Below, piece after piece: positions 7,130-24,502 of a DNA stretch of 29,240 bases. The notes beneath the pieces were generated by a model. The model was not told where the DNA came from, made no database searches, and saw only the letters and a list, made by a program, of their open reading frames with translations. The DNA comes from Spirogloea muscicola (Eukaryota; Streptophyta; Zygnematophyceae; Spirogloeales; Spirogloeaceae), in assembly GCA_009602725.1 (NCBI GenBank), contig WELB01000199.1, forward strand, positions 62,443-91,682, given 5' to 3'. The first letter of the stretch is position 1, and each line of letters starts with the position of its first letter. The translations under genes were made by a program, and so were the position numbers.

Positions 7130-7445
7130 GTGGCACTCCCAATGGGGGCAAGGGCTGCGAGAAGCCAGCCCAAAAAGAATTGACAAAGGTTCGGAGGGGC
7201 CTGCAAGCGTGTAGCCGCTACAAAAAGAAGAAGGCTCGCCCATAGAGAAAGAGGGGCTGGCAAAGCCAGCCCAAAAAGAATGGACAATGTCCAAAGCCGA
7301 AAAATGAGAAGCCGAGGAAGGACGCCTCTACTCTACCACTCACGACAACATACTAGGGAAGCTCAGTACCCGCGAGTGAGCAACATCAGGTCCGAGTAGC
7401 TCGAGGCAGGGAAGGAGGCACTCCGCCGAGACCCGGAGGCCGCCT
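7130..7445 (-). repeat. Repeat-family block including the left 215-bp inverted arm (7227-7441)
   Basis: Read on the minus strand, 7441-7227 matches plus-strand 8541-8755 almost base for base, with only a handful of differences over 215 bp and no length change seen. The arm contains the hairpin core GGGCTGGCTTTGCCAGCCC and the ACTCGCGGGTAC-like segment. A second, related hairpin unit (GGGCTGGCTTCTCGCAGCCC on the minus strand) lies just beside it at about 7137-7190. No transposase or reverse transcriptase frame is present. Confidence 0.85.
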
Positions 7446-15360: not shown

Positions 15361-16650
15361 TTATTACCATAGCCGCCATAGATTCCATTGTGCGAGGTAA
15401 GTAAGAGGTCTCCGGGGGGGGTGCTCTCCTGTTTGTCCTCCGTTTTTCTTTCTTAAATTGTTGCCCAGCCAGGCAGTGTCTGCGTAAAACCCTCCCACAT
15501 CTTCCTTCTCTCCCTCCAATTTGTAAGAAAGCATTGATGTGGACAACGTCACGAAGGGAAGGGGTGCAGCGCGCATTAATTGAGAGGAAGCCAAAGAAAA
15601 TGAGAGGGAGGCCAAAGCAAGCCAGTACATTTTGTAAAGATCAGCGAGGAAACGGGGTAAGGTAAGGGTAAGGTAACAAAACGAAATACACAATCGAAGG
15701 GGGACTCTATTGCCCACGAGTGAACACGAGGAGGCGAAGCTCGCTGCTCCGGGGTGACAACCACGGCCAGGCAACGCATGTCTAACTTGCCAGGTCTTCA
15801 GTGAGGGGGGAATGATGCCCGACAGCTTCATTGCCAAGTGGTGCCCAACCTCGTGAAGAATGCCAGATATAGCATCTCCACTTAGCTGGTGGAAGGCAAT
15901 GCCCTCACTACCCACCACGAGGTCAGCACAGCCCTCAGCAAGTGAAGGAACTGAGTGGAGGAGGTCGCGGCATTGGCGGTGAGCTGACAAATCTGGAGGT
16001 AAGCTTGAATGGCAGGGCCCCTTTACACTGTGACCGGAAGAGGCTAATAGAAGAGGCTAATACCTCAGGGTCAGCCTGTTCTCGCCGCGTGTCTTAGCGC
16101 TCTCTGGCCCCTTCGGACCTTGACTCTTCCATCGAGTGTCCTTTCACAGCCCTCGCCCCCTTTGGTTGAGCTGCTTCTTGTTCGTCAGAGTGAAGCTTTG
16201 GAGATGCTGGAAGCACTGAAGGCCCAAAACCCCAGGGATGCTGCTCGGGTGAGGGGAGCCAGTGGGTATCAGACAAAGCCACCTTGCTGATAGAGTTGAA
16301 GAAGCAGAAGATGAAGCTCTTGCAAAAGCGAAAGTGGACAAGGTCTGGAAGGTTCAGAAGGTGCAAAACACATGAACTCTCAAAGTAGTAGTCAAGGGGC
16401 GCGGAAACACGCTGAAGCAGGGCGGCTGGCGAAGTAAACGAAGCTCATTCTGAAGGTGAAAGGAGCCGGAGCAGCGTAGACCTTGCCAATCCTTCTTGGG
16501 CTGACCTCCCAAGGCCATTGCCTTCCTCTGGAAGAGCTGCTCCTTACAGAGGGAGTCGGGTGGTGCACCAGGCCTGCGAGAGCCTGTCGGAGGCGGCGTA
16601 TCACAGCGGTGCAGAGATGGCGTCGAGTGCGGAGGTGACGGTTGTCAAGG
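15361..16650. other. Gene-poor stretch with a repeat-family fragment and one long minus-strand open frame
   Basis: At 15609-15636 the sequence GAGGCCAAAGCAAGCCAGTA matches the repeat family (compare 7731-7757), so part of 15.6-15.8 kb is a diverged copy. A minus-strand open frame of 208 codons (15364-15990) contains the protein-like stretch HEVGHHLAMKLSGIIPP, which I do not recognise. Plus-strand snippets at 16.17-16.37 kb look coiled-coil-like (LIELKKQKMKLLQKRK) but do not join into a gene. These may be gene debris; nothing is supported. Confidence 0.35.
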
Positions 16651-16910
16651 AAGAAAATTGCGCCCCCTGATATGGTAAGAGCGGCTGTTAAGGCCAGCCA
16701 GGTGCATACAGACGCTGTCGAGGAGCAGGGACAACGTTACACGGGTGGGGGAAGGGGGTGCGGGGCCGAATGGATGCGGCTGCTGATACTGAAAGAGTGG
16801 CTGTAATAGCCACAGCCAGGTGCATACAAAGGGTGTTCATGATTGTATTAGCTGAGCCACAGGCTACGCAGACAGGGCGGTCTCAGTACCCCCGTGTCAG
16901 CAGCAGCAAG
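16651..16910 (+). repeat. Two short diverged direct repeats beside the foldback
   Basis: GCGGCTGTTAAGGCCAGCCA (about 16681) and GTGGCTGTAATAGCCACAGC (about 16797) are each followed by CAGGTGCATACA. Each unit has internal hairpin potential (GGCTGT/ACAGCC-like). They are about 117 bp apart and may form the outer flank of the foldback element. No gene is seen here. Confidence 0.55.
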
Positions 16911-16914
16911 TCAG

Positions 16915-17790
16915 ATGAGCTGAGGGGAGGAAGAGCAACCCCGCTGCGCAAGCCGGAGGCTACCGCAAGGGCGCGACCGGCTCGCGGTGCAAAGCAAGCG
17001 CTTGGACTCGCTGCAAGGACACAGACAGGCGCATGCGGTAGCATGACACAAGACCCGAAGCCACCGAGCCTCCAGGAAGTGCTGCACACTGTTCGCGGCG
17101 CCGCTGGTCAGCTTGAGAGGCCAGCATCGAGAGTAACGAGGACCACCGATCCCCGCGACACCCGTGGATGTCCATGGCCAGTGTGTACGGGGTTAAAGGT
17201 ATCGCCAGCTGGGTGGTACTTGTACCTAGGTAACTTCTTCTGTTCGGCACCTTCTCAGCATAGCCGGTCTCAGAAGCTATGGGACGCTTCTTCGGTGGGG
17301 ATGACGTCCATGAGAAGCCGCTTGCCACTCCTCGAAAGAGGCGCGTCGATCTGGTGGGCGTCCCAGTGGGAGGTGGCAAGCGGCTCCTCATGGGCGTCGT
17401 CCTCACCGACAGCTTCCAGAAGAAGGGCCCCATCACTTCTGAGACCGGCTATGCTGTGAAGGTGACCGAACAGAAGAAGTTACAAGAGTACCCGGCCGGC
17501 GATACCTTTGTGCCCTGGCCATGGACATCCACAGGTGTCACGGGGGTCGGTGGTCCTCGTCACGATCACTGCTGGCCTCTCGAGCTGACCAGCGGCGCCG
17601 CGGACAGGGTGCAGCACTTCCTGGAGGCTCGGCGGCTTCGGTTCTTGCGTCCTGCTACCGCATGCGTCTGTCTATGTCCTTGCGGCGGTCCCCAAGCGCT
17701 TTGCTTTGCACACGCCGAGCCGGTCGCGCCGGTTGCAGCAGCCTCTGGCTTGCGCAGCGAAGCTGCTCTTCCCGAACACCCGATATCTAT
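16915..17790. mobile_element. Roughly 0.88-kb foldback (long inverted repeat) element
   Basis: The left half (about 16915-17325) is the diverged reverse complement of the right half (about 17385-17790), by eye roughly 80-90% matched, with the axis near 17355. Inner landmarks are GAGAAGCCGCTTGCCAC at about 17311 and its partner GTGGCAAGCGGCTCCTC at about 17371. Middle landmarks are CATAGCCGGTCTCAGAAG on the left and CTTCTGAGACCGGCTATG on the right. The outer ends carry the same repeat-family module as 8.4-8.6 kb. Open frames on both strands (for example 17279-17833 plus and 16960-17436 minus) encode similar peptides because of the palindrome, so they are not evidence for a protein. No target-site duplication could be fixed. 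Confidence 0.8.
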
Positions 17791-17819
17791 AACTACCTCG
17801 TCCACTTCTTTTGTAGCAG

Positions 17820-17913
17820 CTACACGCTTGTAGGCCCCTCCGAACCTTTGTCAATTCTTTTTGGGCTGGCTTTTCGCAGCCCTTGCTTTCCTATGGGCGC
17901 GCACATTCTTCTA
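17820..17913 (+). repeat. Repeat-family hairpin unit between the foldback and the TIR element
   Basis: Contains AGGCCCCTCCGAACCTTTGT, the CATTCTTTTTGGGCTGGC-type core (here AATTCTTTTTGGGCTGGC), GCAGCCCTTGC, and CTATGGGCGCGCAC. Its closest relatives are at 7137-7215 (minus) and 18807-18860. Confidence 0.65.
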
Positions 17914-18067
17914 CTGTCAAATCTTGTTATAGGCACGTCGGCCGGTTTGGCGAAAACATGTGACTATGTCGAGGGTGTGCGTGTTCGTTGTAGAGGCACT
18001 ATTGCCCCCAAATGTGCTTCTACCGTGACAATCAGCAATATATCAAGTTATATTGGAAATGGCTTTT

Positions 18068-18180
18068 TGGGTTTAGGTTTAGGGTTAGGGTGTAAAAACT
18101 AGACCCTAACCCTAGACCTAAACCCTAAACCCCACACCCTAAACCCTAAACCTTCTATCTAAACCTCAACCCTAATCCTC
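18068..18180. repeat. Interstitial telomere-like repeats in head-to-head orientation
   Basis: About 20 bp of TTTAGGG-type repeats (GGGTTTAGGTTTAGGGTTAG, from 18069) meets CCCTAAA-type repeats (18103-18180) across a 14-nt spacer. The right block has several units plus degenerate ones. TTTAGGG is the plant and common green-algal telomere unit. Facing arrays are what an end-to-end fusion, or repair-inserted telomeric DNA, would leave. Here they sit inside a putative transposon. Confidence 0.9.
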
Positions 18181-18204
18181 TGTTCCATGGCCCACGCTCT
18201 GCAT

Positions 18205-18426
18205 CTGCGAGCTGGCCGTGCTCTCTCTGCGGGCTCTGGCTTTCGTCAGGGTGATAGCTTCCCGGCCCCTAGTCTGTCGGATCTGAGGCTCCTCACTCGT
18301 ACTTATTGAGTGATCCATCCTCCCCCTGTTTTACCATTGCATCCTCAGGCCCCTTTGCAGCTGCTCACCGCTCTTAGGCCCCTCTGAACCTTTGTGAATT
18401 CTTTTTGGGCTGGCTTTTCGCAGCCC
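18205..18426 (+). repeat. Direct repeat copy 1 (repeat-family unit)
   Basis: A 222-bp unit from CTGCGAGCTGGCCGTGCTCT to GGGCTGGCTTTTCGCAGCCC. It is more than 90% identical by eye to 18617-18839. Its reverse complement, more diverged, is found around 7440-7600. Confidence 0.85.
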
Positions 18427-18616
18427 AGTAGAGGAGTCCTTCCTCGGCTTCTCATTCTTCGGCTTTGGACATTGTCCATTCTTTTAGGGCTGGCTTTGCC
18501 AGCCCCTCTTTCTTTATGGGCGAGCCTTCTTCTTGCCCCCATTGGGAGTGCCACTTCTTTCTTTCTTTCTGTAGAGAACATGAGAGATATGTTGATTTGT
18601 TTTCCTATAGGCACTT
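18427..18616 (+). repeat. Repeat-family spacer matching the 8.6-8.75 kb arm
   Basis: AGTAGAGGAGTCCTTCCTCG through GGGCGAGCCTTCTTC (18427 to about 18533) is nearly identical to 8648-8755. It is followed by a short TTTC microsatellite (TTCTTTCTTTCTTTC) and unique sequence. Confidence 0.8.
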
Positions 18617-18839
18617 CTGCGAGCTGGCCGTGTTCTCGCTGCGGGCTCTGGCTTTTGTCAGGGTGATCGCTTCCCGGCAGCTAGTCTGTCGGATCTGAGG
18701 CTCCTCACTCGTACTTATTGAGTGATCCATCCTCCCCCCGTTTTACCATTGCATCCTCAAGGCCCCTTTGTAGCTGCTAACCGCTCTTAGGCCCCTCTGA
18801 ACCTTTGTGCATTCTTTTTGGGCTGGCTTTTCGCAGCCC
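18617..18839 (+). repeat. Direct repeat copy 2 (repeat-family unit)
   Basis: A 223-bp partner of 18205-18426, including GTCTGTCGGATCTGAGGCTC and GAGTGATCCATCCTCCCCCC. The unit continues for a few more bases into GCCCCCATTGGGAGTGCCAC, which is also present at 7133-7155 (minus). Confidence 0.85.
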
Positions 18840-19144
18840 TTGCCCCCATTGGGAGTGCCACTTCTTCTTCTAGTGGGGAAGTCTGCCCCGAAAAACTGTG
18901 CCTGTACATACAGGCACGTTCCTATATCGAGTCACATTTGCCTGGGGAAAAAAGTGCTTCCCGCAAAATGGTGCCACTATCGAGGTTTTGCCCTAATGTG
19001 CCTATATCGAGAGGTGCCTATAACAAGGTTTGACTGTATATGGGGGAGCGCCCACCAGTGGGGCAGAGGGCCTGTCTGCCTGCCGGGGCTCGCTCGTCTT
19101 CCTCGATTGGGAAGCAGGTGGTTCCGGCCGTCAGGTTAGCGAAC

Positions 19145-19330
19145 GGGACACAAACCCCCCCCCCGATGCTGCCGCGCCTGGTCGCGCTGCGGCCGCCCGC
19201 AGCATACGCCGCCGCCGCGGCCGTCGCAAGGCCCGCCTTCTGCCGCTGCTGCGGCGGCGGCGGCGGCACTGCCACCCGCCGCGCCGCCCTGCTGGGAGGT
19301 GCGCCCGCAGCCGCAGCGACCTGACGGTCC
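19145..19330. promoter_or_regulatory. GC-rich triplet island upstream of the oligopeptidase B gene
   Basis: Dense GCC/GGC triplets 0.15-0.34 kb upstream of the ATG at 19480. Promoter or 5'-UTR role is inferred from position. Overlapping long open frames on both strands reflect base composition. Confidence 0.45.
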
Positions 19331-19479: not shown

Positions 19480-22400
19480 ATGGCGTCCGCAATGGCCTCC
19501 TCTCAAGGGGCCGGCAGCGTCGCCGCCGCAGGTAGGGGTTGCTCTGACATTCACTTCGTCATCGCGAAGGTGTCCTAGCGATGGCGTTCATTGACGCTTT
19601 CTCGAGCGACGTGTGTTCAATTTGGTAGCTCAACTGAGACCTTATGTCGTAATTCTCCCATCAAGAGTTCAATCCATGGCTCAGTCACTGACCTCAAGGT
19701 CACTGCCCTGCGTCTCCTTTTGCTTGGCGCCTGCAGAGGTCCCAGCAGGGTCGAACAAGTACTCCAGCAGCGCAGCTGCAGCCGGGGCAGTGACCTTGCC
19801 GCAGCCACCAGTGTAAGCAGAACTGCAAGTCGCATACACTTCAGTGCTTCTTCCTGAGTCAAGCGTGTTGCTTGTCTGCAGTACCATCTAATCGAGCAGT
19901 CGACTGAATGTAGCTAAGTTCAGACTTCATGTGCTTCCGCTGTGACTTTTACTTGAAGTCTGTTTTCGTACTCACTGTCGCTTCTTTTGAATGTCAGCTA
20001 CTGAAAGCTGAATCTGCTGTCTGCAAGTTCTGACTTGCATTGCCTGCTCAATTGGCAGAACCAAGGAGGTAGAGTACAAGTTCTCCGAGCTCTTTGGGGA
20101 GGTCAGAGACGATCCCTACTACTGGCTTCGGGATGACGACAGGAATAACCCCGAGGTGCTCGAGCACCTCAAGGCTGAGAATGCATATGTGGAAGCCGTG
20201 ATGGGAGACACCAAAGCATTCCAGGAGGACCTTTACCTGGAGATGAGGGGCAAGATCAAGGAGGACGACTCATCTGTCCCAATCAGGTGCCACCTCTAGG
20301 CGCAAGAGCTGCCACTCAGCTTCGAAACAACCTGGACAAGACATCCTCTTGCCACTGTTCCTTGCTTGGCAGCTTTGATGTCAGATAGCCTCTTGGAAAA
20401 GTAATTCACCTGCAGCTGCTGTTAGCACTTGGATGCGGTCCTTCTGAACTAATTCCATCTGCATTGGGCGCTGTTTTGAAGGAAGGGTCCATATTATTAT
20501 TACACCAGAACCGTGGAAGGCGAGCAATACCGAGTGCATTGCCGCCGGAGCATTGCTGATGGAGAAGGCGAGGGGGCAGTTGATGATGTGATGGATACCA
20601 GCGAGAATGCACCCCCAGAGGAGGTGCTTCTAGACGAGAACAAGAAGGCGTCCAGCTTTGACTTTTATAAGGTTGCTGGTTTCAAGGTGAGAGAAGCCGA
20701 CTAGCTTGTACAAATCAGGGTAACAGAAAGGCCAGAAATTGATGACTACCAAAGCTGCTTATGGATCACAACTTTGGGTGGTGGATCTGCAACCTGAGCC
20801 CATAGCGTATAGAAACACGAATGAACTTCACAATGTTGAGCTTGGCTTGCGATACTCGCCATACTTGTCCATTTTGCCAAGCCCCTGCTCATGCTTGGCC
20901 TACAGGTTAGCCCAGACCACGAGTTTGTGGCGTATGCAGAGGATACGGAGGGTGGAGAGAAGCACACATTGGGGATCTGGGATCTGGCCACGACTGCACA
21001 GCTTGGGCCTGGAATACCAGCCACCAGTGGCGATGTAGCGTGGGCTAATGACAATGAAACTGTGTTTTACATCACCAAGGACAAGCTTGATCGCCCATAC
21101 AAGGTGACATTACTGACCCTGCTAATTTCAGTGCCTTCCACTACTCCTATGTGAAGTATCCTGATTAATCCTGGGGTTTCAGCCTCAGCTTGCTGTAGTC
21201 AGCAACCCAGATAAGCAATGTTTGCAGGGCAAGTCTGTTGGGTTGGCAAATCGGTGTTCTGATCCGGTCACCCTGCTCAGGTCTGGAGGCACACAGTTGG
21301 CGCAGACCCTTCCTCGGACACGTGCGTCTTCCACGAGGAGGATGAGTCGTTCTACCTCTCCTTGTCGCGCTCAGAGTCGGGGGACTACCTCTTCCTGTCA
21401 GCAGGCAGTGCAGTGACTTCTCATGAGTTCAGCATCCCCACCACCTCTCCCCAAGTGGAATGGACAGCCATCACACCCAGAGTGCAGGACGTGGAGGCCT
21501 CCGTCACGCACAGAGGGGACCACTTCTTCATCATCAGGCGCACCGAGGAGAATTACAATTCCGAGCTTTTGGTCTGCCCTGTTAGCAATTTCGGCGAGCT
21601 GATTGTGCTACTTCCACACAGGCCCAGGTCAGTAATGACTTTGCACTTTCCTGCCTTGGTTGGCCATTATCTCTGTTTGTTTAAGATATCTAATTGGCCG
21701 ATTTTAATCTGAAAATCCTGACATCTAGTCAGAGGAATAAGGGCAACTTCTGCTAACATCTCTCAATAACCTATGTACCTTCTTGTGTACAGCGTCAAGT
21801 TGGAAGGCATCCAGGCTTTCCGCGATCACCTGGTACTATTCGTAAGGGAGAATGGGCTACAGGGCATCACAGTCTATGAACTGCCTCCTGTGGGCCAGCC
21901 TATAACAAATTTGCCTCCTGGGAAGAACATTACCTTTAACGAGGAAGCTTACTCTGTCTCAGAGGAGTACGGTCAGTACAAGTCCGCAATACTGCGCTTT
22001 GGCTTCACGTCTCTCAAGACCCCTTATTCCGTTTTTGACTACGACATGAGGACTGGGCAGAGGGCATTGAAGAAAGTTCAGCCGGTAAATTTCCCGATAG
22101 TCATGTGTTGTGCTTTGGCCTTAATATGTCGCATATGCAGCCTTGATTTGTCTGCTTTGTCTAATTTGTTTGTGTATGAAGATTGTAGGAGCTCCTTGAC
22201 AAAGAGCAATCATGACAAGCTCCACCACCTTGGCCAGGTCCTAGGAGGCTTTGATAAGGACAATTATGCCACTGTCCGCCGATGGGCTACTGCTGAAGAC
22301 AACACGAAAGTGCCAATCTCCATTGTGTATCGGAAAGACAAGGCCAATCTTGATGGCACTGACCCACTTCTGCTAAATGGCTATGGAGCCTACGAGGTAT

Positions 22401-24502
22401 GTAGGTCTCCTACACAAAGCTGGGGGATTACTGTAATGTGCAGCCTCAAGTGTTTGTATTACTTGAAGAAGTGTGACACTGGCAGAAGCATTCCAGATGT
22501 TTACAGGAAAAGACATGCTATACAGTTCCCTACTAATGCTTGCTCGACTGAAAGCTGGATGAGCACTGTGTCTTGCTGCCACAGATCCCAAACGACCCCT
22601 ACTTTAACAGCAATATCCTGCCTCTGCTGGATCGCGGAGTAACTTTTGCTATGGCACACATTCGGGGGGGTGGAGAGCTGGGTAGGAAGTGGTATGAGGA
22701 CGGGAAGTACCTGAAGAAGAAGAACACGTTCTCCGACTTCATTGCCTGCTCCCAGTACCTCATTGAGCACAAGTAGGCAAGACAGTGCTCCGTCTGAGAC
22801 GCAATTACTGCCACTCATTGGATCAATTAGCGTTAGCTCTTTCCTCAATTGTCGCCATCCAAACCATTCTATGTGCTCTGCATCCTCCATCTCTGTGATG
22901 CTGCGGCTGAGGAATGGTGGCAGGCTAGTGACCCTGTCAAACTGGACGCAGATGGGTGGCTGGGGACAAGTTGTGCATTGAAGGTCGAAGTGCAGGAGGC
23001 CTTTTGATTGGAGCTGTGCTCAACATGCGGCCAGACCTTTTCCGGGTGCGTTTGGCAGGATTGGTTGCAGTCTAGATACAACATCCCACATCCTACATGA
23101 TCCCACGCTCGTCTCCTTACACATGCCAAACTCCCTTCTTGACGCCTATGACTCCTATACGGAGCACCAAACATCACGATGTGGGGTATCTTCCTGTTTG
23201 CTGGTATTGACACCTTGCTTCAGGTCGGAGGTGGCTGACCAAATTCTTGGTAGGTAGTGATAGCAGAGGCAGCCAGCAGACAGCTGTTCCATGTGATTCT
23301 TGGTTCAAGAATTTCTACCAACTAGTAACGCCCCTGTGTTCCTGAGCATGCACTTAAATTTCTGCCTCAGGTGGCCTTTGCTGGGGTGCCCTTTGTGGAC
23401 ATTGTCACAACCATGCTTGATCCTTCCATTCCCCTGACGACCATTGAGTGGGAGGTACATTCAGACTGTCGTTGCAGCACAGTAACAGTAGCTAGGAGTA
23501 GATGCCTTGTCATGCGTGAGTGAAGGATAACATTACCAGATGATGTCAACCATGGCTTTTAGTAGCAGCATCTTGAAGGACATGGAAAAGTACTGCTTAA
23601 TCAATTAAGCTTAATCAAAGCTGGATCAATCATCTGTTTTTCCAGGAGTGGGGAAATCCGAGCCAGGAGGAGTACTTCAAGTATATGATGTCATACTCTC
23701 CTGTGGACAATGTCAGTAGTCACCATCTGGCCAAGTGGCCCCTCATGTGCATGCACCTGTGTCTTTGCATCGCTACAGGCTGACATGATTCACAAAGTCA
23801 AGATCAAGTGTTGCACTTTATAGCTCGATACTATAAATTTAACGTCAAGGATGCCTGATCTGTGTGGTTGCTCTCATAAGACTGTCTTCGACAACTCTTG
23901 AGAAACTCTCATGGTTAACGTTGCAGGTGGCAAAGAGGGAGTATCCCAACATCCTCGTGACGGCTGGCTTGCATGGTATAGCCCCCACTTCCTCCTGCAA
24001 TTTGCACAAGCAATGCAGAAGCAGGCACCTAACAGGCACCTAGCATACAGCATCAGCCATGGCGCTCGTACATGTGGGAGACGCTCATTTCCAACATACC
24101 CATCGCAGATCCTAGGGTGGGGTACTGGGAGCCTGCCAAGTGGGTCGCGAAGCTGCGGAAGAACCAGCTTAATGATTCGCGCCCGATCGTATTTAAGTGC
24201 GACCTTGGTGCTGGCCATTTCTCGAAATCTGGCAGGTCTGTCATGCACTCAACCGGCCTCTTGGGCCCTCTTGATCTCCTCAAAGTATTGTGCATCACAA
24301 TGATTCAAACTTACGGCGCTGGGATGAGCTGTTGCTTCTTGACTTTGCTCTGTGCTGAGCATTCTTCGAGCAGTTCAATGTGCTGAGTTGCGGTGGTATG
24401 TGATGCAGGTTTGACAAGCTCAAAGAACGTGCATTCGAATATTCATTCACACTGAAGTGCCTCGGACTCATACAAGAGAGCCCATCATCTTCCCGCCTTT
24501 GA
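19480..24502 (+). CDS. Oligopeptidase B (S9A serine peptidase), plant/algal type
   Basis: Serine oligopeptidase expected to cut short peptides after Arg/Lys, probably cytosolic or organellar. Fifteen exons join in frame to 752 codons plus TGA: 19480-19531, 19737-19812, 20059-20286, 20482-20686, 20906-21103, 21281-21627, 21793-22084, 22238-22396, 22585-22772, 22952-23045, 23371-23454, 23646-23711, 23927-23975, 24109-24235, 24409-24502. The family N-terminal signature [10 protein letters not shown] is near residue 65. A beta-propeller (about 110-460) is followed by the catalytic domain: [32 protein letters not shown], nucleophile GRSAGG (S595), LHDPRV (D680), GAGHF (H716). The 85- and 36-residue spacings of the triad match oligopeptidase B. 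Residues 1-45 are an Ala/Ser-rich extension, possibly a targeting peptide. It is tail-to-tail with the DNMT2-like gene. Confidence 0.95.

Follow-up and report, generated by a model that had tools for sequence, protein, structure and literature searches.

A pogo-type MITE family with an internal head-to-head telomere-like core

Related elements and the host genome

Pogo-type MITEs are a known kind of element. Among them is Emigrant, a MITE of the Lemi family, and the family described here resembles Lemi/Emigrant, which are pogo elements of land plants, in its TA target, in ends that start with CAGT, in the combination of HTH_Tnp_Tc5 and DDE_1 domains and in the existence of short non-autonomous derivatives. 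We know of no telomere-like core in Emigrant. Short interstitial telomere tracts, on the other side, are commonly interpreted as traces that chromosome fusion or break repair has left.

HTH_Tnp_Tc5 together with DDE_1 is among the domain sets given for pogo transposases in PMC7386202, which, in the part available to us, describes Lemi as DD29-42D with a single HTH_Tnp_Tc5 among its forms and records it from red algae, eudicots, Chromista, fungi and others, with one Fot-like species for the green algae. DNA transposons that carry telomere-like sequence have been reported as the TBE elements of Oxytricha, members of the Tc1/mariner group (PMC7325037, in part). The MITE described here belongs to the same wider transposon group and also carries telomere-like sequence; unlike TBE, as portrayed in that part of the source, it has this sequence internally, in head-to-head order and only in the short form. 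The transposition of interstitial telomeric sequences (ITSs) by mobile elements has been proposed in general terms, for large heterochromatic blocks and with no internal-core MITE named in the portion of the paper at hand (PMC6410037). A MITE with an internal head-to-head telomere core was not found in the literature searched, which was covered in part and mostly as titles and abstracts, nor in the available portions of PMC7325037, PMC6410037, PMC9498494, PMC8621592, PMC6532368 and PMC6947457. The novelty is this internal core in a MITE, pogo-type MITEs themselves being already known.

The stretch of DNA analyzed here, called the window, is 29,240 nucleotides long and corresponds to C199:62443-91682 of a 153-Mb genome assembly of 471 contigs, which has gaps, so that repeat counts are lower bounds. 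The host genome encodes chlorophyll a/b-binding proteins; the top PDB match of its LHC protein was LHCI-2 of 9vfj, followed by chlorophyll a-b proteins that include 8htu and 7xqp, and these chains come from mosses. Its telomere unit is TTTAGGG: three exact consecutive units were matched 752 times genome-wide (reversed control, 0), and among the 100 places listed of these matches there were TTTAGGG arrays at contig starts, e.g. in C10 and C22. Interstitial CCCTAAA tracts are present as well. Within contig C27 (905600-906500, L063) a (TTTAGGG)n array is followed by a single N and by (CCCTAAA)n, so that two telomere arrays lie head-to-head; this junction reflects a genuine fusion or else scaffolding across two telomeres. 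Each of two flank queries returned two further copies with 82-88% identity and one short, weak extra match, and the two further copies per query suggest an old triplication of the host genome. Together with the LHC matches, this would suit a zygnematophyte with a triplicated genome, e.g. Spirogloea. A Pfam scan of nine reading frames in the window detected one domain, Peptidase_S9_N (prolyl oligopeptidase), at 21770-22642, and DNA of this region is also found in C309 and, partly, in C16. An Rfam scan of the window gave nothing at the gathering score.

Structure of the window copy and of the MITE family

The window segment 17914-19036 is one copy of a pogo-type MITE, the intact members of which are ~466 bp long. 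Its 5′ terminal inverted repeat (TIR), CTGTCAAATCTTGTTATAGGCAC (family form CAGTCAAACCTTGTTATAGGCAC), is located at 17914-17936 on the plus strand, and the 3′ TIR, at 19014-19036 on the minus strand (C199:81456-81478), has the exact family form with 0 mismatches. The strandless TA dinucleotides at 17912-17913 and 19037-19038 are the left and the right target-site duplication, and TA flanks occur in other copies, too. The preliminary description of this DNA, made from the letters of the window, was therefore correct about near-matching 23-bp TIRs with TA outside both, and also about the facing TTTAGGG and CCCTAAA arrays: the G-rich arm of the telomere-like core, in the TTTAGGG sense, spans ~18066-18091, and the C-rich arm that faces it, in the CCCTAAA sense, spans ~18102-18179 (both on the plus strand).

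The same description regarded the 1123 bp as a single unit that contained two direct repeats of ~222 bp. This had to be abandoned, since the blocks 18184-18567 and 18619-18866 (plus strand) are missing from the sister copies and lie outside the MITE proper. What remains is a left part of the MITE body with the core (17914-18183; element positions 3-270 correspond to positions 3-257 of the sister copy L014 with 92.5% identity), a middle part (18568-18618; L014 253-303, 96%) and a right part (18867-19036; L014 299-467, 97%), all on the plus strand, which together make a ~466-bp MITE with ~13 extra core bases. Judged by their sequence, the two blocks are two later insertions into the window MITE, because they are absent from the sisters, derive from a repeat that is very abundant in the genome, have pyrimidine-rich 3′ tails and are accompanied by ~5-bp duplications (inspected by eye, the overlaps give TCTGT at the first and CTTCT at the second). 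What had been described as ~222-bp direct repeats corresponds to the portions in which these two later, unrelated insertions are alike.

With the window element as a query, the abundant repeat accounted for 3582 first-look candidates, and the 40 that were scored yielded 111 matching pieces. Elsewhere in the window, pieces of it are present at 98-183, 7235-7281 and 17803-17882, the last just outside the element. Hairpins of the form GGGCTGGC..GCCAGCCC and pyrimidine-rich tails characterize it, its 5′ ends vary, and it is possibly a retroposed family. We also considered a telomeric tract as a regular neighbor of this repeat and rejected it, as there was none in the 160 bases upstream at L003-L012. 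Just left of the MITE, positions 16929-17772 form an imperfect palindrome of ~840 bp with arms ~80% alike, including a 173-bp stretch at 90%; related DNA is also present in L011.

A genome-wide search with the family TIR (≤3 mismatches) gave 130 matches, 64 on the plus and 66 on the minus strand, and none for the reversed control. Among the 100 places listed of these 130, inward-facing ends within 8 kb of each other were assembled into 32 TIR pairs, 24 of which enclose the telomere-like core. All 24 core-bearing pairs are 459-541 bp long (464-470 bp in 20 cases); the eight without the core measure 208 bp in one case and 1,761-5,910 bp in the other seven, of which the 5,910-bp pair on C137 is possibly not one element. 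L014 as a DNA query returned 112 candidates, of which 40 were scored, and the full-length copies were 87-100% identical to it. TA was found on both sides in 14 of the 15 TIR-bounded loci fetched first (the exception was L014) and in 30 of the 35 MITE-type copies with both ends located; the exceptions in the larger set were L014, L031, L041, L047 and L057, with L041 and L047 truncated at one end. Thirty of the 35 copies were aligned, leaving out L027, L041, L047, L057 and L059 as composite, truncated or over-long. The family thus consists of short, TIR-bounded elements in many copies of fixed length, as is characteristic of MITEs, and the genome does hold other TIR-paired copies with TA flanks, the absence of which would have counted against the transposon reading of the preliminary description.

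Three kinds of unusual members were noted. L028 (C398:36361-36568) is a 208-bp element with the family ends and no core, inserted in the abundant repeat. L015 (C11) and L016 (C57) are 1.76-kb members with the family ends that are 99.7% identical to each other, which suggests a recent movement of a second deletion form. L060-L062 (C51, C35 and C3) are partial copies with identical 262-bp ends that start right after N-runs; they are probably gap-edge artefacts and are outside all pair and alignment counts.

Longer relatives, transposase and empty sites

Six longer members with the family ends (1.8-4.4 kb) were read, and none of them has the telomere-like core. Their left ~146 bp are 84-87% identical to the window copy, and within their right ~215 bp identity is 82-92% over 50 bp and 89-99% over 170 bp. 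In a 4.0-kb element an interior of ~3.7 kb occupies the place where the MITE has its ~100-bp core, and the sequence agrees on both sides of it. In the 30 aligned MITEs the core is preceded by AATGGC in 25 copies and followed by CTGTAGAG in all 30; both motifs are also found, with small variations, at the interior edges of the six long elements.

The DDE_1 profile matched the genome 26 times and 14 control genomes not at all; four of the 26 matches fall inside L017 and L018. In L017, HTH_Tnp_Tc5 (E=3.5e-07) and DDE_1 (E=3.5e-26) were found in separate reading-frame pieces with scores that exceed the Pfam cut-offs, while DDE_3 was under its own cut-off and a third piece had no Pfam match; the HTH_Tnp_Tc5 scan covered L017, and DDE_1 is present in both elements. 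L017 and L018, which share the ends and contain DDE_1 sequence, are therefore candidates for the autonomous copy with a DDE transposase that the preliminary description had advised looking for. In both, the transposase sequence is spread over different frames, whether because of introns or of damage, and they may no longer be active. The DDE_1 domain, the HTH_Tnp_Tc5-type domain and the TA target place the family in the pogo superfamily. In the translation of L017, 41 residues were counted by eye between the last two aspartates, and this DD41D spacing, rather than a tree, makes the transposase compatible with the Lemi range.

The sites of insertion were analyzed by joining the flanks of an element with one TA and comparing the joint with the loci in hand. 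This was done for 33 of 37 candidates (L014, L031 and L057, which have no TA/TA, and L059 were left out; L025 and L027 were outside the set). A match that crosses the joint was obtained for seven of these 33 TA/TA joints, and none among the loci in hand for the other 26. Besides these seven, the joined flanks of L028 were 100% identical to uninterrupted copies of the abundant repeat in four rows of 83-87 bp. The core-bearing copies L021, L039 and L045 had gapless rows across the joint, e.g. 64 bp at 86%, 65 bp at 88% and 39 bp at 90%, and L021 and L039 had in addition some rows with a gap near the joint. In the matches of L020 and L054 the gaps were away from the joint, and for L016 and L036 all matches lacked 9-12 bases close to it. 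A target-site duplication together with a one-TA empty site was therefore found for L028, L021, L039 and L045. The expectation that empty sites restore a single TA was borne out by most of the readable joints; two of the seven differ by 9-12 bases near the joint.

Comparisons with homoeologous contigs were made as well. The copy on C45 (L023) is absent from the homoeologous contigs C32 and C71, where indels hide the exact TA; a short query made of the joined L023 flanks had no direct match in either contig. A query with the flanks of L026 matched the abundant repeat and no homoeolog. For the window copy no exact empty site was readable, C16, the third homoeolog, being without the whole stretch 15446-19049. 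C309 (L002/L013), when compared with window positions 18282-19281, was 100% identical over element positions 369-1123 (755 bp), with a single N at the breakpoint, and its blocks beyond window position 19281 are 81-96% identical to the homoeologous C199; the 755-bp identity may be due to gene conversion or to an assembly artefact.

The telomere-like core and its origin

The core consists of ~25 bases of TTTAGGG type, a spacer of ~10 bases (GTGTAAAAACTA or similar) and ~65 bases of CCCTAAA type, the C arm being ~2.5 times as long as the G arm. Its units are degenerate, with forms such as TTAGGG, GGTTTAGGG, CCTCAACCC and CCCCACACCC, and there is no clean TTTAGGG array. The family TIR contains no telomeric unit, and the core is internal to the element; as a tract of the host telomere unit away from chromosome ends it is an ITS, albeit a degenerate one. 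Chance was assessed on the sister copy L014, in the core of which 72 of 100 bases lie in exact (TTTAGGG)n/(CCCTAAA)n 7-mers, whereas 2000 dinucleotide shuffles gave 8.5 such bases on average and 39 at most. Folded as single-stranded DNA, the L014 core was predicted to form a long hairpin of -22.9 kcal/mol (shuffles, -11.2 with sd 2.26; 0 of 200 as good). All 30 aligned MITEs have the core, as does the window copy; in L056, 13 of its bases are missing. Whether other copies hold the core, as the preliminary description had asked, was answered by a pattern search at a tolerance of 3 mismatches, which returned 41 matches on 35 contigs and 0 for the reversed control. Forty of the 41 are in MITE-like sequence, one element having two matches; the exception, C67:126572 (L073), has no MITE body around it and matches only in pieces of 26-51 bp.

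The suggestion that a transposon could spread internal telomere tracts is supported: 24 of the 32 TIR pairs have the same core, joints with one TA exist, and relatives with the same ends contain DDE_1. We are highly confident that the window element is a pogo-type MITE with a core common to its family, and that telomere-like tracts have been spread as its passengers. The other suggestion of the preliminary description, an insertion of the element around an old fusion site, has a negligible probability, and so has an assembly of the element across an old telomere fusion at the window locus. Joins of telomeric DNA do exist in the assembly (C27:905600-906500), but copies on many contigs contain the same core at the corresponding position, the core travels with the element, and these core-bearing copies elsewhere rule out an insertion around a fusion site.

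The core looks like telomere-like filler that entered a single time, when the MITE came into being, and then spread by transposition, because it takes the place of ~3.7 kb that the longer element has and the MITE lacks, a pattern expected of break repair with filler. A long element would have been broken internally, e.g. when the gap left by its excision was repaired incompletely, and the break closed with head-to-head telomere-like DNA, telomerase adding repeats at the broken 3′ ends before these were joined. The transposase of the long element would recognize the intact ends and move the short form, dispersing the telomere-like tracts as its passengers. The window copy was later struck twice by the abundant repeat. 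In mammals, telomere repeats are inserted at breaks, often with a deletion, and 1-5 in-register bases favor telomerase; random breaks would offer at least three such bases in ≤1.56% of cases, and 65 of 130 rodent ITS insertions are accompanied by a deletion only (PMC2246262, in part). The core resembles these short ITSs at double-strand breaks in the tract at a break, the deletion and the in-register bases at one junction; it differs from them, as described in that part of the paper, in that they are species-specific insertions at single sites, whereas here the tract is head-to-head, inside a transposon and in about forty copies. The right break of the parent element, read outward, ends in ...CAGG, and CAGGG is found in 24 of the 30 copies, so that its AGG keeps the register of the repeats; in 5 of the 30 copies this junction reads CAGAG. 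The left junction (..GGC|TTTTTGGG) has no such microhomology, so it is the right junction that points to a telomerase step, and the degeneracy of the core counts against this step. Telomerase-assisted break repair is our first, if tentative, choice among the possible sources of the filler.

Gap repair of a broken long element could instead have copied an interstitial telomere tract that already existed, after which the MITE spread. This has a smaller chance of being correct: the core shows the degeneracy of an old interstitial tract, interstitial CCCTAAA tracts occur in the genome and one core-like match, that at C67:126572, is without a MITE body, but the 41 matches included no donor of the full core at ≤3 mismatches, a tolerance that a more diverged donor would escape. 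The orientation of the core fits a head-to-head joining of two telomeres, and fold-back copying would fit it as well, a single tract at one broken end having folded back and been copied into a palindrome with no second telomerase-healed end. The arms of the L014 core do pair as a strong hairpin, and in the four copies that could be parsed (L020 could not) the G arm is in register with the adjacent C arm at 22 of 23 positions in L050, 21 of 23 in L046 and L014 and 20 of 23 in L049. However, a unit-shuffled null reached the observed register score in 616 of 3000 trials, so that the register does not distinguish between the possible origins; good folding is expected of any head-to-head telomere-like arrangement, and the C arm is the much longer one. 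We regard fold-back copying as unlikely. Slightly less unlikely, yet still doubtful, is a double chromosome healing, in which telomerase would have capped both ends of a break made by the transposase and the mini-telomeres would have been fused head-to-head and copied to about forty sites; if so, the transposon would be a vehicle that seeds telomere-fusion-like, break-prone tracts across the genome.

A function of the core, either as a telo-box-like site for a telomere-repeat protein that serves the MITE or the host or as a cruciform that aids transposition, appears improbable to us. Each copy contains several AACCCTA-type units, a hairpin is predicted for the L014 core, and in Arabidopsis telo-boxes bind TRB proteins and recruit PRC2 (PMC10167121, in part). 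Nevertheless, there are long elements, as well as a 208-bp member, that lack the core, and in the 30 aligned copies there was no sign of selection on it, because its mean pairwise identity (0.942) is similar to that of the left (0.962) and right (0.933) body, i.e. it varies about as much as its surroundings. TRB is also reported, in the same part of that source, as absent from the Zygnematophyceae studied, so that the known reader of telo-boxes may be missing if the host belongs to this group.

Returning to the passenger spread of the core, tracts in fusion order have been dispersed in this genome by a transposon, and to count each of them as a separate scar of fusion or repair would be wrong here. 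Their junctions constitute a multi-copy record of telomere-like filler entering a transposon.
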